Shown: piece by piece, positions 388-60,487 of the stretch
Numbering within the stretch: position 1 is the first letter of the stretch
Layout: each line of letters opens with the position of its first letter
NCBI RefSeq assembly: GCF_003033925.1
Contig: NZ_CP028365.1
Location: forward strand, 248,001-312,000
Reading direction: 5' to 3'
DNA: 64,000 nt
Source of the DNA: Tannerella serpentiformis
GTDB taxonomy: Bacteria; Bacteroidota; Bacteroidia; Bacteroidales; Tannerellaceae
Program-made: the position numbers and the translations under genes
Notes under the pieces: generated by a model
Told to the model about the DNA's origin: nothing
Seen by the model: the letters and a program-made list of their open reading frames with translations, nothing else
The model's database searches: none

Positions 388-660
388 AAAAACAAGTTCT
401 GTTTTCCCACTCTGCACGCTGCGGAGTACGAAAACAAAATCTGTTTTCCGCATTCCGCAGTGTGCAGACCTCAAAAACAAAGTTTGTTTTGGCACTCTGC
501 AGTGTGCAGAACCCAAAAACAGATCTTGTTTTCGCACTCCGCAGCGTGCAAAACCCAAAAACAGACTTTGTTTTTCTACTCCGCAGCGTGCAGAACCTCA
601 AAACAGACTTTGTTTTCCTACTCTGCAGCGTGCAGAGTTGCCATTCAGCGTTTGTTTTTA
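388..660. repeat. Array A1: about 6 units of 42 bp with two dyads per unit
   Basis: Six units start at 389, 431, 474, 516, 558 and 600, so the period is 42-43 bp. Each unit holds an A/T dyad (AAAACA-n5-TGTTTT, for example AAAACAGACTTTGTTTT) and a G/C dyad (TCTGCAgcgTGCAGA or CCGCAgcgTGCaa). The last copy decays by about 660. Reading frames run through the array on both strands, but they have no ribosome site or recognisable protein and are not called as genes. The array lies beyond the porE terminators. Confidence 0.85.
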
Positions 661-763
661 TACCCCGCAAACGGCTCGCCAGCAACTCAATAAGCCGCTT
701 TACAGCCATTCTGCATACGGACCTATCTCTACGCAAACCGTTTTCCCATCCTGAAGAAAAAAA

Positions 764-794
764 AGCTCCCCCCACGTATCACGCAGGGGGAGCT
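764..794 (-). terminator. Second terminator downstream of porE
   Basis: AGCTCCCCC and GGGGGAGCT form a perfect 9-bp stem around a 13-nt loop. Read on the minus strand it is followed by a run of eight T. It lies beyond the stronger hairpin at 952-996 and may act as a backup or serve both directions. Confidence 0.7.
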
Positions 795-951
795 CTATCT
801 TGACGGTTATCAAGTGATGTGAAAATTTTCAGGTCTTAAACTAAGGACACTTCTCAGGAGAAATGGTTCCGCATCTCTCCTATGGGCGAACAAATATATG
901 TATTCTTTTAGAACTGCAACCCTGCAGTCGGCATAATCAATAAAATAAAAA

Positions 952-996
952 CGGCCGGACAGGTGCAGCGGCTGCGTAACTGCATCTGTCCGGCCG
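952..996 (-). terminator. Rho-independent terminator of porE
   Basis: CGGCCGGACAGGTGCAG (952-968) pairs with CTGCATCTGTCCGGCCG (980-996) with one wobble. On the minus strand a T-rich tract follows. It lies about 40 bp past the porE stop codon. Confidence 0.9.
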
Positions 997-1035
997 GATA
1001 GGCTGTCCGTCAGACGGCCCATGTGGTCGTGCGAT

Positions 1036-3033
1036 CTATTTTATCTCATAGTCCATGCCGGTCACCTGGAACTCCGTCCGCCGATTCAGTTGGTCGGCCA
1101 CTTCTTGCTGCTCCTGCGGCAGACTGTTGACGAACTCCTCACTGAGCACAGTGCCCTCGGGCAAGAAGGGATACTTCTCGGCCAGCTTGGCCGTGATGGT
1201 CTTCGGAACCATTTTGCCGTACCCTTTGGCCGTCAGGCGTGCCGCGTCGATGCCCGCAGCGATGAGGTAATCCACGACCGACTGTGCGCGGCGTTGCGCC
1301 AGACCCTCATTATAGGCGTCCGATCCCTTCCGATCGGTGTGCGCACCCAGCTCGATCCGCGCAGAGGGGTTATCACGAAGCAGTTTGATCAACCGATCCA
1401 AGGCTTCCTTTGACTCGGGGCGAAGCGTTGCACGATCGAAATCGTAGAAGATGTTCTCAACAACGACCGGCTTGTCGGTGGGCGAGAGGAAGAAGTCCAC
1501 GTAGTACGTCTCATTCTTCTCCTCCGCCTCGGTCTTCAGCTCGAAATTTTGGTTGAGGTAGTTGGGCGCTTCGGCCATCATCACGTAGTCCATCCCCCGG
1601 GCAAGCTCGACGCTGTACGACCCGTCTTTCTTAACCGGTATCTTGCGGTTCATGCCGTCACGACCTACAATTCGGACGATGGCTTTATCGATGGGCACCT
1701 CGTCGACATCGGAAACGTAACCATCAATCTTCATCGTGAACGTGGGATACTCGAACGAATAGATGTGATCCCAGCCCCGCGCATCGCCGCGATTAGAGGA
1801 GAAAAGTCCGCGCTCGCGTTGTCCCTCGAACGTGATACCGAAATCGTCGAACGACGAGTTGATGGGCGCGCCGAGGTTCTCCACGTGCCATTGCCCGGCG
1901 CTGTCCTGCTTGGCGCGGAACAGGTCGAGCCCGCCCATCCCGGGATGCCCGTCGGAGGCGAAGTAGATCGTCACCGAGTCGCGGACGTAGGGAAACAGCT
2001 CATCGCCCGCCGTATTGATCACGGGGCCAAGGTTCTCCATGCCGCCAAAGTCCGAACCGCCTACGATTCGCGATCGGAAGAGGTCCTTGCCACCGTATCC
2101 GCCGACGGATTCGGCCACGAAATAGAGGTACTTCCCGTCGGGCGAAACCGCTGGGTGGGCCAGCAGCGTGATCGAGTCCTTCAACACGTTCGCACGCTGA
2201 CCCTTGCTCCATGCAGCCCCGCTGCGCAAGGATTGGTAGATCTCAGCCGTGCGCGGCTCGGTAGCGTCGACGGCGCAGAAGGTGTAGTACATCGTGTTGC
2301 CATCTCGGGTGAACGAGGGCGTACCCTGATCATACTCGCTGGCCACTGGGTCCTCCACCTCCTTCGGCTTTGTCCAGACGCCCTGCTCATTCTTCTTGGC
2401 GAAGAAGAGCGCATTGTTTTTCAGCCCCGTGATAGCATTGACGGAATCCTTATGGACGATCCCCTGGGTGGAGTTGAAGTAAACTTGATCGTATTTGTCA
2501 CCATAATACATGGGGCAGCACTCACTGCGCCGAGAATTGAAGACCTCCATGCGGGAGACCTGGTAAAGCGTCGGCCGATCGCGCCATCTGACGGCCGAAT
2601 CACAGCCCGCCAAAGCCAGTACGGCACGCTGATCCGTGGGCGCCTCAGCCAAATATTCGCGGTAATACCGGGCGGCCTCGTCGTAGCGTCCCTCTTTCTG
2701 ACACGCCTGACCGAGTCTGAAGCGCAAGAGGCTGTCCGGATAATCGTAACGGAGGGCATTGAGGTAGGCACTGATCGCTCGGCCGTTGTTGTTTACGCGC
2801 TGGTTGCAGTATCCCATGCGGTAAGCGATGTAAGCGCGCAAGTCCTTCTGGTCGGGCTTCGACTTGGTGTAGAGCTTCCGATACATCTCCGCCGCGGCAT
2901 AGTACTCTCCGAGTTGCTGTTTTTCCTCGGCATCCTTCAGCTTGACCGTCTTGCAAGACGTGACGAGGCCGATCAGCAGGCAGCAGACCAGGGAAAGCGC
3001 CGCATGTTTTCTAATTGCGTACAGGGTTTTCAT
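1036..3033 (-). CDS. porE: PorE-like T9SS outer-membrane lipoprotein (TPR, PD40, CRD, OmpA)
   Basis: This 665-residue protein starts with a lipoprotein signal whose lipobox LVTSC puts the acylated cysteine at residue 27. In order come TPR helices (about 35-140), a WD40/PD40-type propeller (about 160-430, with repeats such as SPDGKYLYFVA), a carboxypeptidase-regulatory-like fold (about 435-515) and a C-terminal OmpA domain (about 530-660, with FDRATLRPESKEALD and the peptidoglycan-binding stretch NEGLAQRRAQSVVDYL). This order and length match PorE of Porphyromonas gingivalis, which links the type IX secretion machinery to peptidoglycan. The gene stands alone between divergent queA-side sequence and two terminators. 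The assignment rests on domain order; another PD40-OmpA lipoprotein is possible but less likely. Confidence 0.82.
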   Translation of the reverse strand: MKTLYAIRKHAALSLVCCLLIGLVTSCKTVKLKDAEEKQQLGEYYAAAEMYRKLYTKSKPDQKDLRAYIAYRMGYCNQRVNNNGRAISAYLNALRYDYPDSLLRFRLGQACQKEGRYDEAARYYREYLAEAPTDQRAVLALAGCDSAVRWRDRPTLYQVSRMEVFNSRRSECCPMYYGDKYDQVYFNSTQGIVHKDSVNAITGLKNNALFFAKKNEQGVWTKPKEVEDPVASEYDQGTPSFTRDGNTMYYTFCAVDATEPRTAEIYQSLRSGAAWSKGQRANVLKDSITLLAHPAVSPDGKYLYFVAESVGGYGGKDLFRSRIVGGSDFGGMENLGPVINTAGDELFPYVRDSVTIYFASDGHPGMGGLDLFRAKQDSAGQWHVENLGAPINSSFDDFGITFEGQRERGLFSSNRGDARGWDHIYSFEYPTFTMKIDGYVSDVDEVPIDKAIVRIVGRDGMNRKIPVKKDGSYSVELARGMDYVMMAEAPNYLNQNFELKTEAEEKNETYYVDFFLSPTDKPVVVENIFYDFDRATLRPESKEALDRLIKLLRDNPSARIELGAHTDRKGSDAYNEGLAQRRAQSVVDYLIAAGIDAARLTAKGYGKMVPKTITAKLAEKYPFLPEGTVLSEEFVNSLPQEQQEVADQLNRRTEFQVTGMDYEIK

Positions 3034-3101
3034 TTCTAATTGAACGAAGCAAGTTTGGGGGTTATTGCTGCACAGTCCGTGTGTCGATCCAGGACGACGG
3101 A

Positions 3102-4328
3102 CTATAACAACAGCGAGCTATCGCCGTAGCTCAAGAATCGGAAGTCGTGCGCCAAGGCGTAGTCGTAGATCGTGCGCCAATCCCCACCCACGAAGGCCGA
3201 GACAAGCAGCAGCAGGGTGCTCTGTGGCTGGTGGAAGTTGGTGACCATACCGCGTACGATCTTGAACTGGTACCCCGGCGCAATGATGATCTGTGTGGCG
3301 GCCCACAGGCGATCCATCCCGCGGCGGTCCAGGTAGCTAAGGATGGCCCGGAGCGCCTCCTCCGCCGTCAGCGTGGGTGCATCGGCGTCGTACGGCTCCC
3401 ATTGGCCCACGGTGAACGCTCCGTCGGCCGACTCGTCCGCTCCATCCCGCGCCAACGCACAACCGATATAATAGAGACTCTCGAGCGTACGTACCGACGT
3501 CGTACCCACGGCGATCACATGCTCCGGCTTAGCCAGCAGTCGGTCCACTGTCCGCCGCGTGACCGCAAAGTGCTCCGTGTGCATCGCATGACCGCCGATC
3601 GTGTCACTCTTGACGGGGCGGAAAGTTCCAGCGCCTACGTGTAGCGTCACTTCTTCGCGCTCGATCCCTCGGGCGTCCAGCTCGGCCAACACCGCAGGCG
3701 TGAAGTGCAGCCCGGCCGTAGGCGCCGCCACGGAGCCCTTGACCTTCGAATAGACGGTCTGATACGTCTGCAGATCTTGCGCCTCTGTCTCACGGTGCAG
3801 ATAGGGCGGAATGGGCAGTACGCCGACAGCCTCGAGCACGTCGGAGAAGGTGCAGCGGGGATTGTCCCAGTGGAAATCGACGAGATCGCCCGCCTCGCCC
3901 GCTACGGAGACGCGTTCGGCCGAGAGCGTAACTGGTTCACCGCCGACGGTGACCGTGGTGTGCAGCTGGCCCGACTTCCATCGCTTGCTGTTGCCCACGA
4001 GGCAATGCCAGGTGCAATGGGCCGTCTGTGCAAACGACTGCTCATAGTCGCTCGGCACGGCTGGCTCGAGGCAGAAGATTTCGATCATGGCGCCGGTGTC
4101 CTTACGGAACAGTAGGCGGGCCCGAATGACCCGGGTGTTGTTGAAGACAAGCAGTGCACCGTCCGGCAGGCAGTCGGGCAAGTGGCGGAAGAGCGTCTCG
4201 CGGATCTGCCCACCGCGATAGATGAGCAGTTTGGAGGCGTCGCGCTCGGCCAGGGGGTACTTCGCAATCCGATCGTCGGGGAGTGCGTACGCGTAATCGC
4301 TGATGTGTATCTGTTGGGGGGTATGCAT
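3102..4328 (-). CDS. queA: tRNA preQ1(34) S-adenosylmethionine ribosyltransferase-isomerase
   Basis: QueA transfers and isomerises the ribosyl part of SAM onto preQ1 at the wobble position of GUN tRNAs, giving epoxyqueuosine. The N-terminal motif ISDYAYALPDDRIAKYPL and the later GLHFTP, HVGAGTFRPVKSD, HTEHF and TNFHQPQSTLLLLVSAF blocks are diagnostic. The ATG at 4328 (MHTPQQIHI) is chosen because the family alignment begins there; the open frame continues 13 codons further upstream. The product of 408 residues is longer than the E. coli enzyme (about 356), with extra sequence between the conserved blocks. It is divergent from the DUF3078 gene. Confidence 0.95.
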   Translation of the reverse strand: MHTPQQIHISDYAYALPDDRIAKYPLAERDASKLLIYRGGQIRETLFRHLPDCLPDGALLVFNNTRVIRARLLFRKDTGAMIEIFCLEPAVPSDYEQSFAQTAHCTWHCLVGNSKRWKSGQLHTTVTVGGEPVTLSAERVSVAGEAGDLVDFHWDNPRCTFSDVLEAVGVLPIPPYLHRETEAQDLQTYQTVYSKVKGSVAAPTAGLHFTPAVLAELDARGIEREEVTLHVGAGTFRPVKSDTIGGHAMHTEHFAVTRRTVDRLLAKPEHVIAVGTTSVRTLESLYYIGCALARDGADESADGAFTVGQWEPYDADAPTLTAEEALRAILSYLDRRGMDRLWAATQIIIAPGYQFKIVRGMVTNFHQPQSTLLLLVSAFVGGDWRTIYDYALAHDFRFLSYGDSSLLL

Positions 4329-4371
4329 AACGGCGGACAAATGTAGGGCGTACAGCTTCAGATTCACCGCC

Positions 4372-4379
4372 TACTTTTG
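4372..4379 (+). promoter_or_regulatory. Bacteroidota -7 box (TACTTTTG)
   Basis: TACTTTTG matches the TAnnTTTG consensus and lies 39 bp before the ATG of the DUF3078 gene. No clear -33 TTTG was found. Confidence 0.7.
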
Positions 4380-4417
4380 CCGGCCATCACACACACTCCT
4401 ATTAATGTAGACACACG

Positions 4418-6034: not shown

Positions 6035-6098
6035 CCTGAAGGGCAGACCCGCGGGCATCCGCCGCCCGTCATCCGGCCCTATTCTATAAGGTATAAGC

Positions 6099-6126
6099 AA
6101 AGGGAGCTCATCCGTGGGCTCCCTTT
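6099..6126 (+). terminator. Terminator of the DUF3078 gene
   Basis: AAAGGGAGC pairs with GCTCCCTTT around a 10-nt loop and is followed by CTTGTTT. The A/T outer pairs make it usable in both directions. Confidence 0.8.
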
Positions 6127-6155
6127 CTTGTTTCGTCCGCTTGCGTTATCCATGT

Positions 6156-6494
6156 GTCATCAAAATTCGATCACGTGAGAGGTAAAAAACCTCACGCGTC
6201 ATCAAAATTCGATCACGTGAGAGGTAAAAAACCTCACGCGTCATCAAAATTCGATCACGCGAGAGGTAAAAAACCTCACACGTCATCAAAATTCGATCAC
6301 GCGTGAACAAAATTTGATCACACGCCAGCTTTTTGTTACTCGCGCGTCATCAAAATTTGATCACGTAAGAGGTAAAAAAGCTCATGCGTCATCAAAATTT
6401 GATCACGCACCAGCTTCTTGTTGCTCGTGTGTCATCAAAATTTGATCACTCGCCAGCTTGTTGTTGCTCGCGCGTCATCAAAATTTGATCACAC
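6156..6494. repeat. Array A2: about 8 units of 42 bp, core ATCAAAATTTGAT
   Basis: Units beginning GTCATC start at 6156, 6198, 6240, 6282, 6346, 6388, 6431 and 6474. The 64-bp step after 6282 comes from an extra half-unit of 22 bp. The core drifts from ATCAAAATTCGAT to ATCAAAATTTGAT, which restores a perfect 6+1+6 dyad. Two scaffold types follow the core: a hairpin-forming GTGAGAGGTAAAAAACCTCAC and a second type with CAGCTT and TTGCTCG. The array lies between the terminator at 6126 and the -7-like box at about 6524. Confidence 0.9.
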
Positions 6495-7138: not shown

Positions 7139-7183
7139 CGCCCCAGAATAGAAAAGGACAGTATAAGTATCAATCAAACGTCT

Positions 7184-12172: not shown

Positions 12173-12901
12173 GGCAGAATGTCTGCCGGGGCTACCATGG
12201 GCCAAGATGGCGTCGGCAGAATGTCTGCCGGGGCTACCACAGGCCAAGATGACGTCGGCAGAATGTCTGCCGGGGCTATCATGGGGTAGGATGACGCTGG
12301 CAGAATGTCTGCCGGGGCTATCATGGGGTAGGATGGTGCTGGCAGAATGTCTGCCGGGGCTATCACAGGCCAAGATGGCGTCGGCAGAATGTCTGCCGGG
12401 GCTATCACAGGGCAGGATGACGCTGGCGACACTGTCGCCGAGGCTACCACAGGCCAAGATGACGCTGGCGACACTGTCGCCGGGGCTACCACAGGTCAAG
12501 ATGACGCTGGCGACACTGTCGCCGGGGCTACCACAGGGCATGGTGACGCTGGCGACACTGTCGCCGAGGCTACCACAGGGCATGGTGACGCTGGCGACAC
12601 TGTCGCCGAGGCTACCACAGGCCAAGATGACGCTGGCGACACTGTCGCCGGGGCTACCACAGGGCATGGTGACGCTGGCGACACTGTCGCCGGGGCTACC
12701 ACAGGGCATGATGACGCTGGCGACACTGTCGCCGGGACTACCACAGGCCAAGATGACGCTGGCGACACTGTCGCCGGGGCTACCACAGGCCAAGATGACG
12801 CTGGCGACACTGTCGCCGGAGCTACCACAGGGCATGGTGACGCTGGCGACACTGTCGCCGGGGCTACCACAGGGCGCGAGGACGTTGGCAAACCATTTGT
12901 C
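12173..12901. repeat. Array A3: 18 units of exactly 42 bp inside the bat operon, three core types
   Basis: Cores start every 42 bp from 12173 to 12887. The first six are GGCAGAatgTCTGCC, the next eleven (12425-12845) are GGCGACAcTGTCGCC, and the last (12887) is GGCAAAccaTTTGTC. All three are dyads although the arm sequences differ. The scaffold GGGGCTACCACAGGCCAAGATG varies only slightly across units. Just after the array GTCGGTT and AACCGAC form a further hairpin at about 12899-12917. Four long reading frames cross the array on both strands; all are repeat by-products. Confidence 0.95.
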
Positions 12902-12945: not shown

Positions 12946-13674
12946 ATGAATATGAAAAGAAGCACGCTATACATCATCAGCATAGGCCTGCTGCTGGCCG
13001 CCGGAAGCGCATCGGCGCAGAAGGCTGAGCGGTCGAATATCCGCCAGGGCAACCGGCTTTATCGCAACGAGAAATATACCGAGTCCGAGATCGCCTATCG
13101 GAAGGGGCTGACGGTCAATCCGCGCTCCGTGGAGGCGGCCTACAACCTCGGCAATGCGCTGTACAAACAGAAGAAATACCCCGAAGCGGCCGAACAATAC
13201 ATGCAGATCGTGGGTCGGCGCGAGCAGTTGCTGGCCGACAACCCGGCCAACGGGCGACGCTTAGCGGAGGTCTATCACAACCTCGGTAACATCCAAATGC
13301 AAGGGAAGGATTACGCCAAGAGCGTGGAGGCCTACAAGCAGTCGCTGCGCCTGAACCCGAAGGACGACGAGACGCGTTACAACTTGGCGCTGGCGCAGAA
13401 ACTGCTCAAGAATCAACAGCAACAACAACAGAATCAACAGCAAAACCAGCAGCAGCAACAGCAGCAGCAACAAGAACAGCAGCAACAGCAGCAAAAGGAA
13501 GACAAGCGCGAGAACAAGACGCAGCAAGAGAAACAGCAGAACGAACAGATGAGCCAGGACAACGCGCAGCAGATACTCGACGCCTTCCTGCAAGACGAAC
13601 GCGACACGCAGGAGAAGGTGAAGAAGGCGCAGCGGCAACAACAGGAACGACGTAAAACAGATAAGCAATGGTAA
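12946..13674 (+). CDS. batC: BatC, periplasmic TPR protein with a Gln-rich tract
   Basis: The 242-residue product has a signal peptide ending near ASAQ, three TPR repeats (about 25-145, with AAYNLGNALYKQKKYPEAAEQY and VYHNLGN) and then a Gln-rich tract of about 40 residues (roughly 150-190) encoded by mixed CAG and CAA codons. A charged C-terminus follows. The ATG at 12946 is chosen because the signal peptide begins there; the open frame runs back into the end of the array. The gene overlaps batD by seven bases. Confidence 0.85.
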   Translation: MNMKRSTLYIISIGLLLAAGSASAQKAERSNIRQGNRLYRNEKYTESEIAYRKGLTVNPRSVEAAYNLGNALYKQKKYPEAAEQYMQIVGRREQLLADNPANGRRLAEVYHNLGNIQMQGKDYAKSVEAYKQSLRLNPKDDETRYNLALAQKLLKNQQQQQQNQQQNQQQQQQQQQEQQQQQQKEDKRENKTQQEKQQNEQMSQDNAQQILDAFLQDERDTQEKVKKAQRQQQERRKTDKQW

Positions 13675-18813: not shown

Positions 18814-18831
18814 CTGATTTGACGTGAGTTC

Positions 18832-19097
18832 GATGTAGGCCATCCTACGATTTCCTGAGGAAATGAGCCGAAAAAGTTTGTGGCGAGCGATTTCCTGAGG
18901 AAATGAGCCGAAAAAGTTTGTGGCAAGCGATTTCCTGAGGAAATGAGCCGAAAAAGTTTTGTGGCGGCCGATTTCCTGAGGAAATGAGCTGAAGAAGTTT
19001 TTGGCAGGCATTTCCAAAAGCACTTTAGCCGTTACAGCGATCTATCCAAGGCATTCTTCAGGGATTAGGAACCCCATTCCTTCATCGAACTCACGTT
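18832..19097. mobile_element. MITE-like shell enclosing array A4
   Basis: The perfect 14-bp inverted repeat ACGTGAGTTCGATG (18832-18845) and its complement (19083-19096) bound 266 bp. The right terminal element (19008-19097) is 90 nt long and matches 51008-51097 without gaps at 73 of 90 positions. No protein is encoded. I see no clear target-site duplication. The family may be mobilised in trans, but a transposase is not visible in the window. Confidence 0.6.
18847..19018. repeat. Array A4: 4 units of 40-41 bp, core ATTTCCTgAGGAAAT
   Basis: The perfect 7+1+7 dyad ATTTCCTgAGGAAAT starts at 18850, 18890, 18930 and 18971; a half-core ATTTCC remains at about 19010. Read on the minus strand the scaffold is ACTTTTTCGGCTC, which shares TTTCGGCTCATT with array A6 and ACTTTTT with A7 and A10. 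The array lies between two terminators in a convergent gap. Confidence 0.92.
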
Positions 19098-25545: not shown

Positions 25546-25735
25546 CGGAAAACACTACGCCAGCCCCAACCCGTACCCAGCCTTCGTCGGAAAACACTGC
25601 GCAAGCCCCAACTCATACCCGGCCAACTTCGGAAAACACTACGCCAGCCCTATCCTGTACCCGGCCAACTTCGGAAAACACTACGCCAACTCCAACCCAT
25701 ACCCAGCCAACTTCCCCGCCACCGGTGGGGGCTTG
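25546..25735. repeat. Array A5a: 4 units of 42 bp in forward orientation
   Basis: CGGAAAACACT recurs at 25546, 25588, 25630 and 25672. The rest of the unit is GCCAGCCCTATCCTGTACCC followed by GGCCAACTT. No strong dyad is visible in this unit, unlike the other arrays. The array ends in CTTCCCCGCC-aCCGGTGGGGG, the same junction sequence that forms the centre of array A5b. Confidence 0.85.
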
Positions 25736-25748
25736 ATTTTCTTTTGCC

Positions 25749-25781
25749 CTCTTTTCTTTCATCAAGGAAAGAAAAGAGGAT
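25749..25781. other. Strong A/G-T/C hairpin between the two halves of A5
   Basis: CCTCTTTTCTTTC and GAAAGAAAAGAGG form a near-perfect 13-bp stem around a six-base loop. No T-run follows directly. It may be an extra terminator or a remnant of an element between the array halves. Confidence 0.55.
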
Positions 25782-25885
25782 TGAAAGAAAGTCGGAAAAC
25801 ACTTTCCAAGAGTAGCACCTGTCGCTCGGTTGCTCCCGTCAGATTTCGTTTTGAGAGCACACGTCGCTTGGTTGCCCTCATCAAG

Positions 25886-26080
25886 AAACACAACGCCCGC
25901 CCTATCCTGTACCCGGCCAACTTCCCCGCCCCCGGTGGGGGCGGGGAAGTTGGCCGGGTACGGGAAGGAGCCTGCGTAGTAATTTCCGAAGTTGGCCGGG
26001 TATGGGATGGGGCGGGCGTTGTGTTTTCCGAAATTGGCCGGGTACGGGATGGGGTTGAAGTTGTGTTTTCCAACTGGGGC
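25886..26080. repeat. Array A5b: head-to-head copies meeting in a long hairpin
   Basis: One forward unit (25886-25927) meets three to four inverted units (to about 26080) of the A5a repeat. At the junction CCAACTTCCCCGCCCCC and its complement form a perfect 17-bp stem with the loop GGT (about 25917-25953). The stem continues through GTACCCGG with few breaks, giving about 30 paired bases. Confidence 0.88.
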
Positions 26081-31413: not shown

Positions 31414-31708
31414 ATTGTATCGTACAATCAACAGATGACTCGTAGGCCGATTGTATCGTACAATGACGAGAAACAAAACCGTTTCGGCTCATTGTATCAT
31501 ACAATCGGCCGAATCGAAAAAAAAACGCCGATTGTATCGTACAATGGCGAGAATCAAAACCATTTCGGCTCATTGTATCATACAATCGGCCGAATCGAAA
31601 AAAAAACGCCGATTGTATCGTACAATGGCGAGAATCAAAACCATTTCGGCTCATTGTATCATACAATCGGCCGAAACGAAACCACCTCAGTTCATTGTCT
31701 CAGACAAG
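31414..31708. repeat. Array A6: 8 cores of ATTGTATcATACAAT at about 41 bp
   Basis: Cores start at 31414, 31450, 31491, 31531, 31572, 31612, 31653 and 31694. Forms ATTGTATcGTACAAT and ATTGTATcATACAAT alternate, with two alternating scaffolds (CGGCCGAATCGAAAA... and GGCGAGAATCAAAACC...). The last core is ATTGTCTcAGACAAg, in which both arms have changed together. TTTCGGCTCATT is shared with array A4. Confidence 0.93.
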
Positions 31709-35503: not shown

Positions 35504-35997
35504 GCCGCTGGCACGCAGGCGCCCCAAAATGTCGCATGACGGAGCCGCTGGCACGCAGGCTCCTCAAAATGTCGCATGACGGAGCCGCTGGCATGCAGGC
35601 TCCTCAAAATGCCGCATGACGGAGCCGCTGGCACGCAGGCGCCCAAAAATGTCGCATGACGGGCCCGCTGTCACGCAGCGGCGCTAAAAAGTCGCTTGAC
35701 AGAGCCGCTGGCACGCAGCGGCGCCAAAAAGTCGCTTGACGGGGCCGCTGGCACGCAGCGGCGCCAAAAAGTCGCTTGACAGAGCCGCTGGCACGCAGCG
35801 GCGCCAAAAAGTCGCTTGACGGAGCCGCTGGCACGCAGCGGCGCCAAAAAGTCGCTTGACAGAGCCGCTGTCACGCAGCGACGCTAAAAAGTCGCTTGAC
35901 GGAGCCGCTGGCACGCAGCGACGCCAAAAAGTCGCTTGACGGGGCCGCTGGGTCACAGCGATGCGAAAAAGTTGCTTGACGGGGCCGCTGAGTCGCA
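35504..35997. repeat. Array A7: 13 units of exactly 40 bp, core CCGCTGgcacgCAGCGG
   Basis: Cores start every 40 bp from 35504 to 35984. The four leftmost units carry GGAGCC-n11-GGCTCC type dyads, and most others CCGCTGgcacgCAGCGG. On the minus strand the scaffold is ACTTTTTGGCG, shared with array A10. The two rightmost units lie inside the 3-prime end of the GNAT gene, which is unique among the arrays here. Confidence 0.93.
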
Positions 35998-40786: not shown

Positions 40787-40818
40787 GAAGCTGTTTCGAT
40801 CTTACCAATTTCAGGAGG

Positions 40819-41165
40819 ACGGGGACTTTCCAGACGGGTACACCCCTATCCCCTCAGGGGATGGGAGCTTTCCAGACGGGTACACCCCTATCCCCTCAGG
40901 GGACGGGGACTTTCCGGACAGGTACGCCCCTATCCCCTCAGGGGACGGGGACTTTCCAGACGGGTACGCCCTTATCCCCTCAGGGGACGGGGACTTTCCA
41001 GGCGGGTACACCCCTATCCCCTCAGGGGACGGGGACTTTCCAGGCGAGTACACCCCTATCCCCTCAGGGGACGGGGACTTTCCAGAAGGGTACGCCCCTA
41101 TCCCCTCAGGGGACGGGGACTTTCCAGGCGGGTACGCCCCTATCCCCTGGAGGGGACGGGGACTG
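40819..41165. repeat. Array A8: 8 units of 42 bp, core TCCCCTcAGGGGA
   Basis: The perfect dyad TCCCCTcAGGGGA starts every 42 bp at 40849, 40891, 40933, 40975, 41017, 41059 and 41101. The eighth, at 41143, is TCCCCTggAGGGGA, a dyad with a two-base centre. The scaffold is CGGGGACTTTCCAGACGGG followed by TACACCCCTA, weakly like ACTTTTTGGCG. The array starts ten bases from the pdxA stop codon. Confidence 0.93.
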
Positions 41166-44659: not shown

Positions 44660-44978
44660 CCGGGAACCCCACGCAGCCTGCGCAAACGCCAAAGCAAATG
44701 CCGCAGAACTCACGCAGGCTGCGCAAACGCCAAAGCAATTGCCGCAGGACTTGCGCAGGCTGCGCAAACGCCAAGGCAAATGCCGCGAGACTCGCGCAGG
44801 CTGCGCAAACGTCAAGGCAAATGCCGCAGGACTTGCGCAGGCTGCGCAAACGTCAAAGCAAATGCCGCAGAACTCGCGCAGCCCGCGCAAACGCCAAGGC
44901 AAATGCCGCGGGACTTGCGCAGGCTGCGCAAACGCCAAAGCAAATGCCGCCGGAACCTCAAGCAGGCTGCGCGATTAA
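44660..44978. repeat. Array A9: 7-8 units of 41 bp, core TTGCGCAggcTGCGCAA
   Basis: Cores start near 44672, 44713, 44754, 44795, 44836, 44877, 44918 and 44960. The typical core TTGCGCAggcTGCGCAA is a perfect 7+3+7 dyad; terminal units are degenerate. Read on the minus strand the unit is TTTGGCGTTTGCG ... GCAAGTC, the same frame that surrounds the different core in array A10. All plus-strand frames are open across the array without a credible gene. Confidence 0.9.
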
Positions 44979-51007: not shown

Positions 51008-51602
51008 AACGTGAGTTCGACGAGGGAATGGGGGGCCTAATCCATAGAGATGGCCTTTGATAGCGCGCTGCAGCGGTCATAGTGCTTTTGGAAATGCTTG
51101 CAACACTGTTGCAAGTCTCACGAAAAACTTTCAGGCGTTTGCAACACCGTTGCAAGTCTCACGAAAAACTTTCTGGCGTTTGCAACACCGTTGCAAGTCC
51201 CACGAAAAACTTTTCGGCGTTTGCAACACCGTTGCAAGTCTCACGAAAAACTTTCTGGCGTTTGCAACACTGTTGCAAGTCCTACGAAAAACTTTTTGGT
51301 GTTTGCGGGAGTCCCGCAAGTCTCTCGAGAAACTTTTTGGTGTTTGCGGGAGCCCCGCAAGTGCCTCGGAAAACTTTTTGGCGTTTGCGGGAGTCCCGCA
51401 AGCCCCACGGGAAATGCTTTGGCGTTTGCGGGAGTCCCGCAAGTCTCTCGAGAAACTTTTTGGCGTTTGCGGGAGCCCCGCAAGTGCCTCGGAAAACTTT
51501 TTGGCGTTTGCGGGAGTGTTGCAAGCATTTCCAAAAACGTTTTGGCCATGGCGTGGCTTCCGTAGAAACTGCTGACTCTATTCTTACGCCGAACCCCACG
51601 TT
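51008..51602. mobile_element. MITE-like shell enclosing array A10
   Basis: The left 90 nt (51008-51097) match the terminal element of the A4 shell (19008-19097, opposite strand) at 73 of 90 positions without gaps. The right flank carries inverted remnants: GCATTTCCAAAA at 51525 (complement of TTTTGGAAATGC at 51086) and CGAACcCcACGTT at 51590 (compare the complement of the outer AACGTGAGTTCG). No protein is encoded. The right end is eroded. Confidence 0.58.
51098..51524. repeat. Array A10: 11 units of exactly 41 bp with a coordinated core switch
   Basis: Cores start every 41 bp from 51098 to 51508. The first five are TTGCAAC-n3-GTTGCAA, the next five are TTGCGGG-n3-CCCGCAA, and the eleventh is a hybrid TTGCGGGagtGTTGCAA. 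The scaffold GTCTCACGAAAAACTTTCTGG (with variants) is shared by both types. ACTTTTTGGCG is shared with A7, and TTTGGCGTTTGCG with A9. Confidence 0.95.
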
Positions 51603-54767: not shown

Positions 54768-54820
54768 TGACTCCGTCCGTCTTCTCACCTCTTCCGGCAA
54801 AACGCCGTTTGTCGCTTTCA

Positions 54821-54904
54821 GAAGCTGTTTGGAATTTATTAGGGTAGAAACAGGCCCCGGATAGACCAGAAATAGAAATGGGGGAGATTCGCCCAAACAG
54901 CTTC
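54821..54904. repeat. Perfect 12-bp inverted repeat spanning 84 bp
   Basis: GAAGCTGTTTGG (54821-54832) and CCAAACAGCTTC (54893-54904) are exact complements. No gene lies between them. The layout fits a very small MITE or a regulatory stem-loop in front of the kinase gene. I found no second full copy in the window. Confidence 0.5.
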
Positions 54905-55014
54905 ATAAAACAATCATCCAATACATTCAAACCAGCTTCTACATATGTCCGGGGGGGATGGCGCGTGCACCCCTCGATCGGGAGATCGCGGCCCATTCCG
55001 CTCTTCAAAAAGAA

Positions 55015-55046
55015 GCCCCGTCGGCTAAAAGCATGACCGACGAGGC
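55015..55046 (-). terminator. Terminator after tRNA-Arg(CCG)
   Basis: On the minus strand GCCTCGTCGG pairs with CCGACGGGGC (one wobble) and is followed by TTCTTTTTG. Confidence 0.78.
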
Positions 55047-55129
55047 TCCTCGAAAACACTATCTATACTATAACAATTACATCTTCATTCCTAATCTAAA
55101 GCGCCTCACGGCGAAGAATGTCGAAGTAG

Positions 55130-55203
55130 TGACCCCGGTGCGACTCAAACGCACGACCTTCAGAACCGGAATCTGACGCTCTATTCAACTAAGCTACGGG
55201 GCC
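55130..55203 (-). tRNA. tRNA-Arg, anticodon CCG
   Basis: The minus strand folds as a cloverleaf: acceptor GGCCCCG/CGGGGTC, D-arm GCTTAGTTGAATAGAGC, anticodon stem CAGA/TCTG with loop TTCCGGT (anticodon CCG, reading CGG), T-loop TTTGAGT and discriminator A. CCA is not encoded, in contrast to tRNA-Arg(TCT). Confidence 0.95.
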
Positions 55204-55215
55204 TCAATTGCGCCG

Positions 55216-55223
55216 CAAATATA
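55216..55223 (-). promoter_or_regulatory. -7 box (TATATTTG) for tRNA-Arg(CCG)
   Basis: The minus-strand TAnnTTTG match lies 13 bp before the tRNA. Confidence 0.72.
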
Positions 55224-55249
55224 GACGGCTGTTTTGAATTGCTCTAAGT

Positions 55250-55417
55250 CGACAGTGTAGGTCGGGGCTTTTCAAGTCTGAAAAGCCGAATCGACAGTGT
55301 AGGTCGGGGCTTTGCAAGTCTGAAATGCCGGATCGACAGTGTAGGTCGGCGTTTTTCAAGTCTGAAATGCCGAATCGACAGTGTAGGTCGAGGCTTTGCA
55401 GGATTGAGAAACGGCCT
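55250..55417. repeat. Array A11: 4 units of exactly 42 bp
   Basis: The 15-mer CGACagtgtagGTCG starts at 55250, 55292, 55334 and 55376. The rest of the unit carries a second dyad GGCTTTTCaagtctGAAAAGCC, which decays in later units. It lies between two divergent promoters (tRNA-Arg at 55223 and the TonB receptor at 55492). Confidence 0.88.
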
Positions 55418-55491
55418 CTAACCCGATCAGGGCTTCTTTCTCCCAACAACCCTCCTTAAAAATAGGGATTGTGGCGCCCTACACGGGCCGA

Positions 55492-55499
55492 TACTTTTG
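55492..55499 (+). promoter_or_regulatory. -7 box (TACTTTTG) for the TonB receptor operon
   Basis: The perfect match lies 31 bp before the ATG at 55530 and excludes the earlier in-frame start at 55497. Confidence 0.75.
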
Positions 55500-55529
55500 C
55501 CCCAAAAACAAGAAAGCACTGTACCCACT

Positions 55530-57935
55530 ATGGTAAACATCCTAAACACAATCCGCCTCGGTCGAGGCGTCCGCCTGTTTGGACTGGCCTTCATCCTCCT
55601 ACTGTCGTTCGTCTCTCTGTTTGCGCAACAGGACGGCACGGGCGTCTGTCAGGGCGGCGTCACTGACGCGGAGACACACAGGGCGCTCGAGGGCGTATTG
55701 GTGCGCGATGCCAGCGGCTATCATGGCGCCGTGACCGATGCCGAGGGGCGTTATAGCGTTGCGCTACCGGCCGGACGATTCAAGCTGACCTTTTCTTGCT
55801 TGGGCTACACCTCGCAAACACTGACGGTAACGGTCGGTCGAGCAGGCACAACGCAACTCGACGTGGCGCTGCGACCGGACGACAGTCAGCTGTCCGAAGT
55901 CGTCGTGACCAGCAAGAGCGCGGCGCAGCGCCTGCGTGAAGCTCCGTCGGCCGTGACCGTGGTCGATGCCTCGGCCCTGCGCTATCATATGGCAACGCTC
56001 AACGAGGTGCTCGACAAGACGGCCGGCGTGCACGTAGCGCGACAGGGCGGCATGGGCAGCATGGCGCGTATCCTGGTGCAGGGCCTCGACGGTAAGCGCA
56101 TCGGCGTCTTCGTCAACGGTGTACCCATGGGGAGTTCGGAGGAGTTTTCACTCGGATCCATCCCGCCCGACATGGTGCAGGAGGTGGAGATCTACAAAGG
56201 CATCGTGCCGGCTTACTTGGGGGGCGACGGACTGGGTGGGGCGGTAAACATCATCCTCAAGGACTTCCAAAACGATCACCTCGAGGCCGCGTATGGCATC
56301 GGGTCCTACCACACGCACACGGCCAACTTCCAAGCCAAGAAATACCTGCCCGCGGCCGGTCTGGCTGTCCGCGCGGGCGGCTCATTCGACTACTCCAAAA
56401 ACGACTATACCTTCAATTCCCCCTTCGAACTTGGGCGCATCATCCGCCGCGATCACGACGCCTATCGGCGCATAGCCGCTGAGGTGGGCGTCGCTTTTAC
56501 CCACCTGCCGCTCGACCACGCAGAGCTGTCCGTAGGCTACGAAAACCTCTACGACGAGATCCAAGGCGGGCTGATGAACGTGCAGAACAATATCCGGCAC
56601 GCCTTCTCGCGCTACAATTCCCTCAACATCTCCCAAGCGCTGTCCAAGCGACTCGCCGACGGCCGATTCTCGATCCTACTCAACGCTTCGCAGGGCTTGG
56701 CTGTGGCCAATCAGGTGGACACCTCGCATTACAGCTACGACTTCCTCGGCAATCGCTTTCTCAGCGCCTCTGTGCAAGGCGAGGTGGGTTCGCTGCCGAA
56801 CGATTCCCGCGATCGATACACGAACCTACAGGAGCGACTCAACGCCAACTATCGTTTCAACGAAGTCCACGCCCTGAACGCCAACATCACCCACCGATAC
56901 AACCGCAAACTACCCAAGGACGACTTGGCCGACAGCTATTCGCGCTTCCCCACCGGCGGCTACCCGAGTCAGTTACATGCAATCGTGGCCGGCCTGACGT
57001 ACGAGTTGCATCTGGCCGGTGGACGCTGGGTCAATGAGGCGGGGATTAAGCTGTTCTATTACCAATCGGAGGTCATGCCGTCGCCTGAGCGAGTGGTGCT
57101 ACAAGAAAAATTGACGGCCGCCAAGAATGCTCAGGCGGCACCGGGATGGAGTGAGGCCATCGCCTGGCACCCCAGCGAAGCACTGACCGTGAAAGCCTCC
57201 GTGCAATCGCTGCGCAGAATGCCCACAGCCGACGAGATGTTTGGCAACGGTGTGCTGATCTATCCCTCCTATATGCTCCGCCCCGAACAGAGCCTGAACA
57301 TGAACCTCGGGGTCGGATGGATCGTCCGTTCCGGGCGCTATCCGCACGCCCGCATCGAGGTCAATGCTTTCTACATGCATCTCACGGACATGATCAAAAT
57401 GATGTACGGCACCATGTATATGGCTTACGAAAACATTGGCCGAGCGCGTATCACGGGCGTGGAGGGCAGCGTGGATGCCGGCCTCTTCCCGTGGCTCGAC
57501 GTGAGGGGCAACGTGTCCTGGCAAGATGCACGCGATACGCGCCGCGACGCCGTCGGTGGCGGGTCTAACTTCCACTACAACTACCGCATCCCCAACACGC
57601 CCTACTTCTTCGGCAACTGCGACATCAACCTGCACGCCGACCACCTGCTGGGCCGCAGATCGCATTCGGCCCTGACCCTCGGCTTTGAGTTCACGCACCG
57701 ATTCAATTACAACTGGGAGGCTCCCGGCGATCGCAGCTCGATGGAGATCCCTTCGAAATACGAAGTGAACGTGGGCCTGCACCACGCCTTCACTCCTCAG
57801 TGGCAGCTCGGCCTGGAGGTGCGCAACCTCTTCGACCGCGAGAACTGGGGCGAATACCGTTACCCCTTAGAGAAGCGCACCCTGCACTTCAAAGTCAAAT
57901 ACACGCTTAACAAACTTAATACGATCAAGGAATGA
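55530..57935 (+). CDS. TonB-dependent receptor with carboxypeptidase-like N-terminal domain
   Basis: The 801-residue outer-membrane receptor has a signal peptide ending near SLFAQ, a CarboxypepD_reg-like domain (about 40-120), a TonB box region (SEVVVT), a plug (about 130-240, with VLVQGLDGKRIGVFVNGVPM) and a 22-strand barrel ending in the C-terminal LHFKVKYTLNKL. It should take up a ligand with TonB energy. The next gene is a DUF4374-type lipoprotein, as in XusAB siderophore systems of Bacteroides, so a siderophore or iron complex is the likely cargo by inference. No riboswitch is seen. Confidence 0.9.
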   Translation: MVNILNTIRLGRGVRLFGLAFILLLSFVSLFAQQDGTGVCQGGVTDAETHRALEGVLVRDASGYHGAVTDAEGRYSVALPAGRFKLTFSCLGYTSQTLTVTVGRAGTTQLDVALRPDDSQLSEVVVTSKSAAQRLREAPSAVTVVDASALRYHMATLNEVLDKTAGVHVARQGGMGSMARILVQGLDGKRIGVFVNGVPMGSSEEFSLGSIPPDMVQEVEIYKGIVPAYLGGDGLGGAVNIILKDFQNDHLEAAYGIGSYHTHTANFQAKKYLPAAGLAVRAGGSFDYSKNDYTFNSPFELGRIIRRDHDAYRRIAAEVGVAFTHLPLDHAELSVGYENLYDEIQGGLMNVQNNIRHAFSRYNSLNISQALSKRLADGRFSILLNASQGLAVANQVDTSHYSYDFLGNRFLSASVQGEVGSLPNDSRDRYTNLQERLNANYRFNEVHALNANITHRYNRKLPKDDLADSYSRFPTGGYPSQLHAIVAGLTYELHLAGGRWVNEAGIKLFYYQSEVMPSPERVVLQEKLTAAKNAQAAPGWSEAIAWHPSEALTVKASVQSLRRMPTADEMFGNGVLIYPSYMLRPEQSLNMNLGVGWIVRSGRYPHARIEVNAFYMHLTDMIKMMYGTMYMAYENIGRARITGVEGSVDAGLFPWLDVRGNVSWQDARDTRRDAVGGGSNFHYNYRIPNTPYFFGNCDINLHADHLLGRRSHSALTLGFEFTHRFNYNWEAPGDRSSMEIPSKYEVNVGLHHAFTPQWQLGLEVRNLFDRENWGEYRYPLEKRTLHFKVKYTLNKLNTIKE

Positions 57936-59203
57936 AAAAGAGCAATTTGTACGGCCTACTGCCCACCGTGGCGGCAGCCTTGGCCCTGATGTTATCCACA
58001 TCATGCGGCGAGAACGACACCCCAACGCCAAAGCCCGATCCCAAGCCCGGACCGAACCCTATGCCGGAGGAGGCGGTGCACCATTACGCCTTCGCGGCAA
58101 ACGTGGACAATGCGTTTTACATCACCACCTTCGAAGACTTCAAGGAGGGCCTGAAGACCGACTTCAAAGGTGCCATCAAGCTGGCGTCCGGGCACCTCTT
58201 CATAGAGAAGTTTGGCGACTACGTCTACATGCAGTCCGGCTCCATGTATGGACAGCAGGGCGAGCAGACGCTCTATAAGTACGCCCTGAGCAAGACGGGC
58301 CGCCTCTCGGAAAAACCCGTGGCACAGCTGGCCTTCCCCGGATCGCCCAACGTGGTGGAGATCATCTTCGCCAGCGAAACGAAGGCTTACGCCGTGACCA
58401 CCGGTAGCCGCGGACAGCTCATCGTCATCAACCCCTCCACCATGACGGTCGTCAAGGAGATCGACCTCTCCGCGTACGCCGAGGGCGACAACGACCCGGA
58501 CGGTGGCAATGGCATTGTGCGCGACGGCAAACTGTTCCTCCCCCTCAACCAAGCCAAATCGATGCAGGAGATCCTGCCCACAGCGGCGCAAATAGCCGTC
58601 ATCGACGTGGCCACGGACCGCGTGGAGAAGGTGATCAAGGACGAGCGCGCTACGAGCCTCGGCATGGTGGGCCACACCTGCCCCGTGACGGACGAGGCGG
58701 GCAACATCTACTTCTACACCGGCCCCCGGTCAGCCATGATGGCGCAGTTCATGCCCGGAAAGGGTTACAAGGACGGCCTGCTGCGTATCAAGAAGGGTGA
58801 GACCGACTTCGACAAGGATTTCTACATGAGCCTGCAAACCACTAACGGCGGCGAAGTGGGGTCGTACGGCTTGTATATGGCCTACGGCGGCAACGGCAAG
58901 ATCTACCTCATGCTCTACAAGCCGAGCCTCGTGACCGAGAAGGACGATCCGAACATGACCAAGAACCGCAGCTTCGTGCCCTACGAGGTGGACGTGCGCG
59001 CCAAGACGGGCCGCGTGCTGCCCATGCCCGCCACCGTGGCTTGGACCTCCAGCGCCATCATCCGCGTAGGCAACGCCATCTACTTTGGCGAGCAGACCAG
59101 CGAGGGCATCGGCTTCTATCGCTACGACATGACCACCGGCAAAGGCAGCAACAAACCCACCGTAGAGACCCCCTCGGGCGCTTACAAGGTGATCGCACTC
59201 TAA
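57932..59203 (+). CDS. DUF4374-type surface lipoprotein (XusB-like)
   Basis: The 423 residues start with a lipoprotein signal (lipobox STSC, cysteine at about 27), a Pro-rich linker (TPTPKPDPKPGPNPMPEE) and a beta-propeller-like body (repeats such as YKYALSKTGRLSEKP and IAVIDVATDRVEKVI). The start overlaps the receptor stop by four bases (ATGA), so the two proteins are coupled. By analogy with XusB of Bacteroides it may bind a siderophore at the cell surface and hand it to the receptor; that link is inference. Confidence 0.78.
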   Translation: MKKSNLYGLLPTVAAALALMLSTSCGENDTPTPKPDPKPGPNPMPEEAVHHYAFAANVDNAFYITTFEDFKEGLKTDFKGAIKLASGHLFIEKFGDYVYMQSGSMYGQQGEQTLYKYALSKTGRLSEKPVAQLAFPGSPNVVEIIFASETKAYAVTTGSRGQLIVINPSTMTVVKEIDLSAYAEGDNDPDGGNGIVRDGKLFLPLNQAKSMQEILPTAAQIAVIDVATDRVEKVIKDERATSLGMVGHTCPVTDEAGNIYFYTGPRSAMMAQFMPGKGYKDGLLRIKKGETDFDKDFYMSLQTTNGGEVGSYGLYMAYGGNGKIYLMLYKPSLVTEKDDPNMTKNRSFVPYEVDVRAKTGRVLPMPATVAWTSSAIIRVGNAIYFGEQTSEGIGFYRYDMTTGKGSNKPTVETPSGAYKVIAL

Positions 59204-59224
59204 GAGATAGGAGGCACACAGACA

Positions 59225-59626
59225 ATGACACGCATACAAAAGATCATCACGCTCTGGGGGCTGGTGCTGGCGGGATTCTTGGCGCACAACATAGCCGACC
59301 TGCTGCCCATCTTCTGGGCCGTGGACGTAGCCGTGGAGCATGCCGAAGAGGCGCCCGTGGGCATGATGGCCTTCATGGCTATCATCACCTACACACTGCC
59401 CGCTGTGGGTATCGCCACAACGATGTACGGCCGTGGCCGTGGCGCGGCGCTCGTGAACCTCATCCTGGCCGCCGTCATGGCGCTCTTCAATGTCCTGCAC
59501 GATGGCGGCGAACTCATCATGGCTTTCAACCCGGTGCAGGTGTTCGTTCTTCCATTCGTACTCTGCTTCAGCATCCTCTTAGCCGTGGAGTCGTTCAAAT
59601 GGTATAAAGAAATGGGCGCGGAGTGA
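59225..59626 (+). CDS. Small four-helix membrane protein
   Basis: This 133-residue protein has four predicted membrane helices (about 8-30, 45-66, 72-92 and 100-122) and a cytoplasmic-type C-terminus (WYKEMGAE). Charged or histidine residues occur near the helix borders (AVEHAEEAP, LHDGGEL). It lies 21 bp after the lipoprotein gene and ends the operon. Related operons encode a PepSY reductase here; this protein is not PepSY and I do not recognise it. Confidence 0.72.
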   Translation: MTRIQKIITLWGLVLAGFLAHNIADLLPIFWAVDVAVEHAEEAPVGMMAFMAIITYTLPAVGIATTMYGRGRGAALVNLILAAVMALFNVLHDGGELIMAFNPVQVFVLPFVLCFSILLAVESFKWYKEMGAE

Positions 59627-59665
59627 CGACGCCTCAGCTGCGACACCCGTCGCAAGCCTAACCTC

Positions 59666-59708
59666 AAGACCCTGTTCCCCCTCTGGCGGGAGCAGGGTCT
59701 TTGCTTTC
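59666..59708 (+). terminator. Terminator of the TonB receptor operon
   Basis: AAGACCCTG pairs with CAGGGTCTT, with the inner stem TCCC/GGGA, and is followed by TGCTTT. Confidence 0.82.
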
Positions 59709-59768
59709 CGCACGTATAAGACCCAAAATCGGTATTGCTTTAGAAGCAAAACCCGACCCCGATTGGAG

Positions 59769-60487
59769 CCAAACCAGGTGGTTTGATGCGAAACACACCC
59801 GCGATTGGGGTCAAACCAGGTGGTTTGATGCAAAACCGACCCCGATTGGAGCCAAACCAGGTGGTTTGAAGCAAAACCGACCCCGATTTAGGCCAAACCA
59901 GGTGGTTTGAAGCAAAACCCGACCCCGATTGGAGCCAAACCAGGTGGTTTGAAGCAAACCCGACCCCGATTTAGGCCAAACCAGGTGGTTTGATGCGAAA
60001 CACACCCGCGATTGGGGTCAAACCAGGTGGTTTGATGCAAAACCGACCCCGATTGGAGCCAAACCAGGTGGTTTGAAGCAAAACCCGACCCCGATTTGGG
60101 CCAAACCAATGGTTTGAAGCAAAACCCGACCCCGATTCGGGTCAAACCAGGTGGTTTGAAGCAAAACCCGACCCTGATTTAGGCCAAACCAATGGTTTGA
60201 AGCAAAACCCGACCCCGATTCGGGCCAAACCAATGGTTTGAAGCAAAACCCGACCCCGATTTAGGCCAAACCAATGGTTTGAAGCAAAACCCGACCCTGA
60301 TTTAGGCCAAACCAATGGTTTGAAGCAAAACCCGACCCTGATTCGGGCCAAACCAATGGTTTGAAGCAAAACCCGACCCCGATTCGGGCCAAACCAATGG
60401 TTTGAAGCAAAACCCGACCCCGATTCGGGCCAAACCAATGGTTTGAAGCAAAACCGCCCTCAGATTGGAGCCAAACCAATGGTTTGA
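59769..60487. repeat. Array A12: 18 units of 41-43 bp with two core types
   Basis: Cores start at 59769, 59812, 59853, 59894, 59936, 59977, 60019, 60060, 60101, 60143, 60184, 60225, 60266, 60308, 60349, 60390, 60431 and 60472. Nine (the first eight and the tenth) are CAAACCAggTGGTTTG; nine are CAAACCAaTGGTTTG, a perfect 7+1+7 dyad. The scaffold is AAGCAAAACCCGACCCCGAT with variants. The array lies between a terminator and the PhoH gene. Confidence 0.95.

Follow-up and report, generated by a model that had tools for sequence, protein, structure and literature searches.

What holds the unit of a tandem repeat to one length when its sequence differs from locus to locus? The question is raised by the window analysed here, by which we mean the whole stretch of 64,000 bases from Tannerella serpentiformis (contig NZ_CP028365.1, positions 248,001 to 312,000; G000:C1:248001-312000), which lies within a single-contig genome of 3,013,500 bases (3.01 Mb). 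A first-pass annotation, made from the letters alone, had described intergenic arrays at twelve loci, with units of 40 to 42 bp and many different palindromic cores. Our analysis confirms that observation and extends it beyond the window, and it partly supports the interpretation that was attached to it.

Census of the arrays

Tandem Repeats Finder (TRF) recovers the arrays named in that annotation at their positions, and the strongest basic lags in a 12-mer scan of the window are 42 (653), 41 (407) and 40 (193), with further peaks at their multiples. Taking the best TRF row for each array, and counting 25546-25714 and 25946-26071 separately, the window contains 13 arrays with a 38-44-bp reading and 103 copies, a number that rises to about 108 when the 4.6 copies in the latter half of the array at 6156-6494 are added and so agrees with the roughly 110 units first reported.

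The genome was sampled as the window plus 40 evenly spaced 20-kb stretches (20, then 20 more), 864 kb altogether, with TRF clusters counted at a score of 80 or more. A period of 40, 41 or 42 bp was found in 123 of the 184 clusters, so the peak proposed from the window holds genome-wide instead of dissolving into a broad spread of periods. The remaining clusters comprise ten with a period of 84 bp, nine with 21-22 bp and 42 others scattered over many periods, among which 7 bp occurs six times, 43-44 bp five times and any other period at most three times. Scattered 7-bp arrays of TAGAGGG or CTCTACC were noted at L009 18790, L019 669 and 15860, L021 7969 and L291 8429.

Read at 38-44 bp, the sample holds 141 arrays (163 per Mb), 104 of them with at least four copies (120 per Mb), and 4.6% of the sampled bases lie inside such arrays. 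At a similarity of 0.45 these arrays fall into 89 sequence families, 59 of which consist of a single array, while the most widespread family occupies nine of the loci sampled. One geometry with many sequences, as first proposed, therefore describes the population well: the intergenic arrays have a repeat length in common and not a sequence, and there are well over a hundred of them in the genome. A common motif as the unifying factor was rejected, only weak words having been found; a degenerate A-tract motif across families is likewise weak and above shuffles.

Intergenic status was judged with a rough, purpose-made gene finder, some of whose called open reading frames (ORFs) run through repeats. 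On this basis, of the 75 arrays that the first 464 kb contain, 64 are intergenic and 11 overlap called ORFs. The genes flanking the 64 arrays are tandem in 35 cases, convergent in 13, divergent in 13 and undetermined in three; for all gaps of at least 60 bp the corresponding numbers are 139 tandem, 36 convergent and 39 divergent. No orientation bias relative to these gaps was seen in the first 464 kb, which indicates that the arrays belong specifically to neither the 3' nor the 5' ends of genes.

Dyad symmetry and linked changes in the arms

The first-pass annotation attributed a perfect or near-perfect dyad to most arrays and regarded it as the selected part of the unit. As a property of the population the symmetry stands, since a dyad score of at least 7 is reached by 51 of the 141 consensus units against 1.2% of shuffles and, taking the best array of each family, by 33 of 89 families against 0.9% of shuffles (30 of 89 with a random member). 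Array by array in the window the description goes too far. Seven of the 13 consensus units reach score 6 and four reach score 7; with 40 dinucleotide shuffles per array, p values of 0.05 or less were obtained for five (those starting at 388, 12180, 18848, 31450 and 59743), whereas the other eight (6156, 25546, 25946, 35504, 40811, 44672, 51107 and 55249) do not reach that level, the TRF consensus at 51107 being a mixture of two cores.

The arms of strong dyads (score 7-9) vary less than the rest of the unit, with a divergence of 0.039 against 0.085, and are quieter in 37 of 45 arrays; for chance-level dyads (score 2-4) the values are 0.067 in the arms and 0.083 in the spacer (12 of 19 arrays, p 0.10). 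These comparisons are to be read with the qualification that the dyad centre was picked on the consensus, a choice that may itself favour quiet arms. Changes in the two arms are also linked. Of 43 double changes within arrays, 33 are complementary, compared with 3-15 of 29-82 when one arm is slid by 1-3 columns; between loci of one family, 19 of 29 are complementary, against 4-6 of 10-23 in slid controls. For instance, the arrays at L010 2777 and L011 939 show complementary differences within a common spacer. Quiet arms that co-vary above slid controls support the view of the dyad as the less variable part of the unit.

In 21 of 27 families a second dyad (score of at least 4) is found at a distance of 18.5-22 bp from the first one, compared with 45% of shuffles. 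Odd length was considered as a hallmark of the dyads, 26 of 33 families having odd ones, and was set aside because odd lengths prevail among strong dyads in shuffles as well (55 of 87).

Helical periodicity of unit variation

The per-column divergence of units from their array consensus was Fourier-transformed, with z values taken against permuted columns. Arrays entered this analysis if their period was 39-43 bp and four or more of their units were nearly complete, which left 105 of 141 (62 families). Harmonic 4, which corresponds to four cycles per unit or about 10.4 bp, dominates the spectrum with a z of 8.8, while harmonic 2 reaches 2.7, harmonic 5 stands at -0.9 and the codon-period harmonic 14 carries no signal (z -1.6). 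Weak-dyad arrays also show harmonic 4 (z 4.2; 33 arrays, 26 families), as does AT content (z 5.2), and after removal of base and CpG effects the signal remains at z 7.5, a value reached by none of 300 permutations.

The phase of this periodicity keeps a fixed relation to the dyad centre: 35 of 44 families agree in it (p 3e-5), and 30 of 44 still do when the dyad itself is excluded (p 0.009). Quiet zones lie 3-7 and 14-18 bp from the dyad centre, and the positions at 0, 9-13 and 19-20 bp are variable. The quiet zones are thus about one helical turn apart, which suggests a pattern such as contacts on one face of the helix would leave. Binding to one face had been guessed earlier from the arithmetic of 42 bp being four turns; the conservation in four cycles per unit now supports it independently. 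Intrinsic curvature is modestly above shuffles (mean percentile 0.66, p 5e-5), and strong curvature was rejected on that ground.

Arrays in other Bacteroidales

From other Bacteroidales, 2.6 Mb of DNA (including some sequence represented twice) yielded 87 distinct arrays, with periods of 20-23 bp in 47 and 41-42 bp in 18 (65 of 87 together). The unit threshold for spectra is passed by 32 arrays of 20-23 bp and 11 of 39-43 bp. In the short arrays harmonic 2 reaches z 5.0 and harmonic 1 z 3.5, and dyads are enriched; nine arrays of the relative G010, a set that includes doubled 21-bp units, give z 3.7 at harmonic 4. Outside T. serpentiformis, then, the periodicity replicates well in the short class and does not yet do so in the long class. 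G010, a 90%-complete metagenome-assembled genome, is rich in arrays (32 in 296 kb), and T. forsythia ATCC 43037 (G027) has none in 56 kb. The arrays are spread through the order Bacteroidales and are far denser in the T. serpentiformis genome.

Downstream of pdxA, the 42-bp array of T. serpentiformis has counterparts of 41 bp in the relatives G014 and G026. The units of these two relatives resemble each other (similarity score 17, shuffle maximum 12.5), and those of T. serpentiformis score 2.5 and 3.5 against them, with shuffle means of 3.2 and 3.1. At this site, then, the repeat length was retained and the sequence exchanged. Three such sites, chosen for having an array in T. serpentiformis, were compared on the same gene side over 30 loci, its own included; persistence at orthologous sites was rejected as a general property, most compared loci being without an array in the same place.

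Mobile elements and recombinases

A minority of the arrays travels in miniature inverted-repeat transposable element (MITE)-like elements of IS5 type or sits at tyrosine-recombinase elements. In the largest cluster of outward flanks (21 flanks), 11 rows from seven arrays and four families reach a common end, ...TCGAACTCACGT with variants, and the similarity of the remaining flanks comes from additional array units or a portion of the leader. In reverse complement the common end reads ACGTGAGTTCGA, which is listed as the end of MITE239 of Porphyromonas gingivalis, matches the right end of MITE700 and is one base off ISPg3 (PMC4596501, in excerpt). The exact motif occurs 34 times in the genome, against none for a reversed control, and seven times as an inverted pair less than 400 bp apart; it accompanies several unit families. 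When CGTGAGTTCGA is sought within 450 bp of the 141 arrays with one mismatch allowed, four have it at both ends, six at one end and 131 at neither, so that 10 of 141 carry such an end where 2.8 are expected by chance. Inverted repeats of an insertion sequence (IS) around an array, the mark of an IS5-type minisatellite MITE, enclose the array of the element at 18822-19096 and are lacking around most arrays. Ends of the BrickBuilt type (GAGAC..TTGCA) were rejected as a general feature, having been found near one of 141 arrays with 0.85 expected.

DDE_Tnp_1 transposase genes or fragments, one with a stop, lie at most 0.9 kb from a ACGTGAGTTCGA end at G000:C1:920123-920623, 1713455-1713724 and 2200805-2201143, and are a possible source of the MITE-like elements. 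Motifs resembling GGGGCGTATGCAATACGCCCC mark a further dispersed repeat, some of it arranged as 84-bp tandem units, at L028 319-1019, L026 16014-16371 and L017 13426-13610.

The genome has 42 tyrosine recombinase (PF00589) genes, of which 32 form 16 adjacent pairs and ten are single; many of the pairs are carried by elements that are related to one another and about 2.9 kb long (L283-L296, e.g. G000:C1:2840452-2842118). Nineteen recombinase stretches (14 pairs and five single genes) were compared. In 13 of them an array with a period of 22 or 40-43 bp lies within the element, at its end or close by, and in six there is none; the 13 are not independent, since they include the related copies L288/L289, L293/L294/L301 and L295/L296. 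A stretch of at least 7.8 kb that includes a 42-bp array is duplicated at 99.98% identity about 650 kb apart (L288 1-7845, L289 157-8001).

One check proposed with the first-pass annotation was to look for an expanded family of DNA-binding or recombinase genes in array-bearing genomes. The recombinases are numerous here, but they do not track the arrays: 40 relatives have 0-25 PF00589 genes, unrelated to the arrays seen. Expansion of HU-type proteins (PF00216) was not observed, with five in this genome against 0-13 in the 40 relatives, other DNA-binding families not having been counted; PF18291 matches number three here and 1-12 in relatives.

Origin of the constant unit length

We interpret the arrays as intergenic satellites of constant size and variable sequence, whose unit length would be set by the DNA helix and which would carry a putative dimeric protein on one face, and we give this reading an even chance of being correct. 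Each 40-42-bp unit would represent four helical turns, and a putative dimeric DNA-binding or architectural protein would touch one face of the double helix, with half-sites about 5 bp on each side of the dyad centre. Two further contact zones, some 16 bp out from that centre, may belong to another site, often rich in A/T, whose own centre lies about 21 bp away. A dimer-like site would then occur about every two turns, once per unit in the 20-23-bp arrays, the simpler form found in relatives, and twice per 40-42 bp, and the repetition of units could lead to cooperative coating of the array. The slight excess of curvature is compatible with a protein-bound face. We infer a protein as the cause, its dimeric and cooperative nature, and any role it may have, whether as a chromosome scaffold or in local silencing or insulation. 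A bolder version, which we regard as rather doubtful, is a chromatin-like lattice in which one architectural protein, or a small family, would read helical geometry and the dyad but hardly any sequence, with one dimer per two turns on intergenic arrays throughout the chromosome.

Several results weigh against a helix-set, protein-bound unit. No binding protein was found, the words common to families are weak, and no single word occurs in most of them. A strong dyad is absent from 90 of the 141 arrays; score-5 dyads, which are near chance, also have quiet arms (0.069 against 0.108; 11 of 14 arrays, p 0.009), so part of the arm effect may stem from choosing the dyad on the consensus, and the double changes count cells or sequences and not independent events. 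Among relatives, the 11 arrays of 39-43 bp lack the four-cycle peak (z 1.0; harmonic 3 z 3.3), the 14 arrays of 21 bp in G010 alone give harmonic 2 (z 1.8) below harmonic 1 (z 2.5), and the periods span 20-23 bp, looser than strict phasing would lead one to expect. Finally, same-side arrays occur at two of 30 loci upstream of phoH, two of 30 upstream of rlmN and four of 30 downstream of pdxA, the last number including L273, whose repeats are short and A/T-rich.

A purely mutational account would need no protein: neutral minisatellites would grow by slippage, their dyads would arise or be kept by quasi-palindrome template switching, and the unit length would be mutational and not selected. It accounts directly for cores that, in alignments, are inverted in place within conserved flanks in two families (FAM 22, L099 12329 against L115 6677; FAM 3, L025 against L116), and it fits the hybrid last unit of the 51098-51546 array, with its junction at the core centre, as well as the lack of gene-orientation bias and the patchy orthologous presence. 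However, the ten-bp periodicity outside the dyad and in weak-dyad arrays is left unexplained, and we consider this account unlikely. A still smaller share of our confidence goes to arrays that serve as binding or attachment sites of tyrosine recombinases, with 42 paralogues producing many cores on one geometry and lone arrays as remnants or targets. The paired genes and the (non-independent) association at 13 of 19 stretches favour it, as does the 96.8% match of L295 to L296, which starts and stops within arrays; yet G010 combines its 32 arrays with only five PF00589 genes, 40 kb each of G009 (25 genes) and G023 (15 genes) contain one array and none, respectively, and none of the 42 genes lies in the window, despite its 13 arrays.

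The RNA, coding and CRISPR (clustered regularly interspaced short palindromic repeats) readings are disfavoured. Transcribed hairpin arrays acting as terminator, stabiliser or sponge seem improbable to us: the dyads could pair in RNA, and an RNA role has been suggested for Bacillus 52-nt repeats, those of B. coagulans being reported as transcribed (PMC8161180), but broken pairs are not biased towards G-U on either strand (GT types number 61 and AC types 69, with p 0.34 for the skew per array), there is no bias to gene 3' ends, the helical periodicity reaches beyond the stem, and the only Rfam matches in the window are two tRNAs. An origin in protein-coding repeats, for which the called ORFs over 11 of 75 arrays might speak, is scarcely credible, as 40 and 41 are not multiples of 3 and the codon-period harmonic is silent.

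Arrays of the window

The features of the window are collected in Table 1. The opposed arrays within 25546-26071 are separated by about 230 bp with G/C-rich motifs at both ends. The PhoH protein encoded next to the last array has 75-76% identity to those of the Tannerella relatives G014 and G027. A CAG/CAA-rich tract lies at 13407-13494, in a TPR-protein gene adjoining a VWA/BatA gene.

Table 1. Repeat arrays and the MITE-like element of the window (positions counted from the first base of the window).
Position	Strand	Feature	Remarks	Basis
388..636	.	array, 42 bp x 5.9	dyad of AACAAA-x-TTTGTT type, score 8	TRF
6156..6494	.	array, 42/43 bp	GTCATCAAA...TTTGATCAC; resembles, by eye only, arrays at or near tyrosine-recombinase elements L283, L287, L290, L297	TRF
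12180..12889	.	array, 42 bp x 16.9	core switches within array from GGCAGA..TCTGCC to GGCGACAcTGTCGCC, spacer remains similar; related arrays elsewhere in genome	repeat rows
18822..19096	.	MITE-like element	inverted ACGTGAGTTCGA ends at 18822-18833 and 19085-19096; inside, 40-bp array 18848-19015 with dyad ATTTCCTgAGGAAAT	
25546..25714	.	array, 42 bp x 4	dyad not above shuffles	TRF
25946..26071	.	array, 42 bp x 3	family of 25546-25714, opposite orientation	TRF
31446..31707	.	array, 40-41 bp	alternating units (81-bp double unit); dyad ATTGTAT-c-ATACAAT or ATTGTA-tcg-TACAAT	TRF, repeat rows
35504..35990	.	array, 40 bp x 12.2	some units with CCGCTGgcacgCAGCGG; family recurs at three further sampled loci	TRF
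40811..41164	.	array, 42 bp x 8.4	TCCCCTcAGGGGA; 14 bp downstream of pdxA	TRF
44672..44972	.	array, 41 bp x 7.3	TTGCGCAggcTGCGCAA type	TRF
51098..51546	.	array, 41 bp x about 11	core switches within array from TTGCAACaccGTTGCAA to TTGCGGGagtCCCGCAA, spacer kept; MITE-like end ACGTGAGTTCGA nearby at 51009-51020	repeat rows
55249..55397	.	array, 42 bp x 3.5	adjoins tRNA-Arg	TRF
59743..60487	.	array, 41-42 bp x 18	CAAACCA-x-TGGTTTG; upstream of PhoH-family gene	

Relation to known repeat systems

Regularly spaced or palindromic repeats of several kinds are familiar in bacteria. Repetitive extragenic palindromes and bacterial interspersed mosaic elements (REP/BIME) are intergenic palindromes in many copies, with one sequence family per REP-associated tyrosine transposase (RAYT); here there are 89 families and a single Y1_Tnp gene, on which ground a RAYT system was rejected, the sequence tag not having been searched for. 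CRISPR arrays have regularly spaced, partly palindromic repeats and unique spacers, whereas the units described here repeat over their whole length without unique spacers (cas genes were not searched for). Coding variable-number tandem repeats do not fit periods of 40-42 bp without a codon-period signal. Plasmid iterons and parS arrays are bound by a replication or partition protein of their replicon; the present arrays are spread over one chromosome.

The suggestion that no described family has these properties did not hold. Noncoding satellites of constant size and variable sequence are known in several bacteria from the work of Subirana and Messeguer (PMC6749651, in excerpt; PMC8161180), who propose a protein polymerising on DNA of constant repeat size, or small RNAs, note that 20-21 nt equals two helical turns and that short signals plus their reverse often occur within one repeat, and state the function as an open question (PMC8161180). 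The T. serpentiformis arrays share with them the narrow size peak (there 20-21, few 40-41, and 52 nt), several unrelated families, dispersed copies and a mostly noncoding location. They differ in the dyads, coordinated arms and ten-bp periodic variation measured here; the words palindrom, dyad and symmetr are absent from the main text of PMC8161180. Their density of 120 per Mb (at least four copies) compares with a bacterial maximum of 23 per Mb in Table 1 of the excerpted PMC6749651, obtained with a different program and thresholds. Inverted repeats score at least 7 in 13 of the 26 Bacillus 52-nt consensus units of PMC8161180 Table 1, against 1.5% of shuffles, on a scale looser than our main dyad score in that wide gaps are allowed; by the same looser score our families give 40 of 89, against 3.0% of shuffles.

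Within the same order, 41-nt arrays (MITE464/PgRS) and 23-nt arrays (BrickBuilt, intergenic), with around 10-20 copies per element, have already been described in MITEs of P. gingivalis (PMC4596501, in excerpt). The unit lengths are alike, and the MITE239/MITE700/ISPg3-type end occurs here as well. However, as far as that excerpt goes, the tandem-repeat MITEs of P. gingivalis have GAGAC..TTGCA ends, while here the end is ACGTGAGTTCGA, at only 10 of the 141 arrays. A limited search of open-licence papers brought up no account of arrays like these from Tannerella, and PMC13298647 uses none of the terms tandem repeat, repetitive, intergenic or palindrom.

The kind of array is thus already known, and the structural clue, a ten-bp variation locked to the dyad, is new. 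This periodicity is suggestive of a protein lying along one face of the duplex, and it turns the puzzle of the constant repeat length into one that can be taken to experiment. If the interpretation is right, a noticeable share of the intergenic DNA of this genome would be a protein scaffold; and if the more doubtful lattice were real, the same principle would lie behind the 20-23-, 40-44- and 52-nt constant-size satellites of unrelated bacteria.

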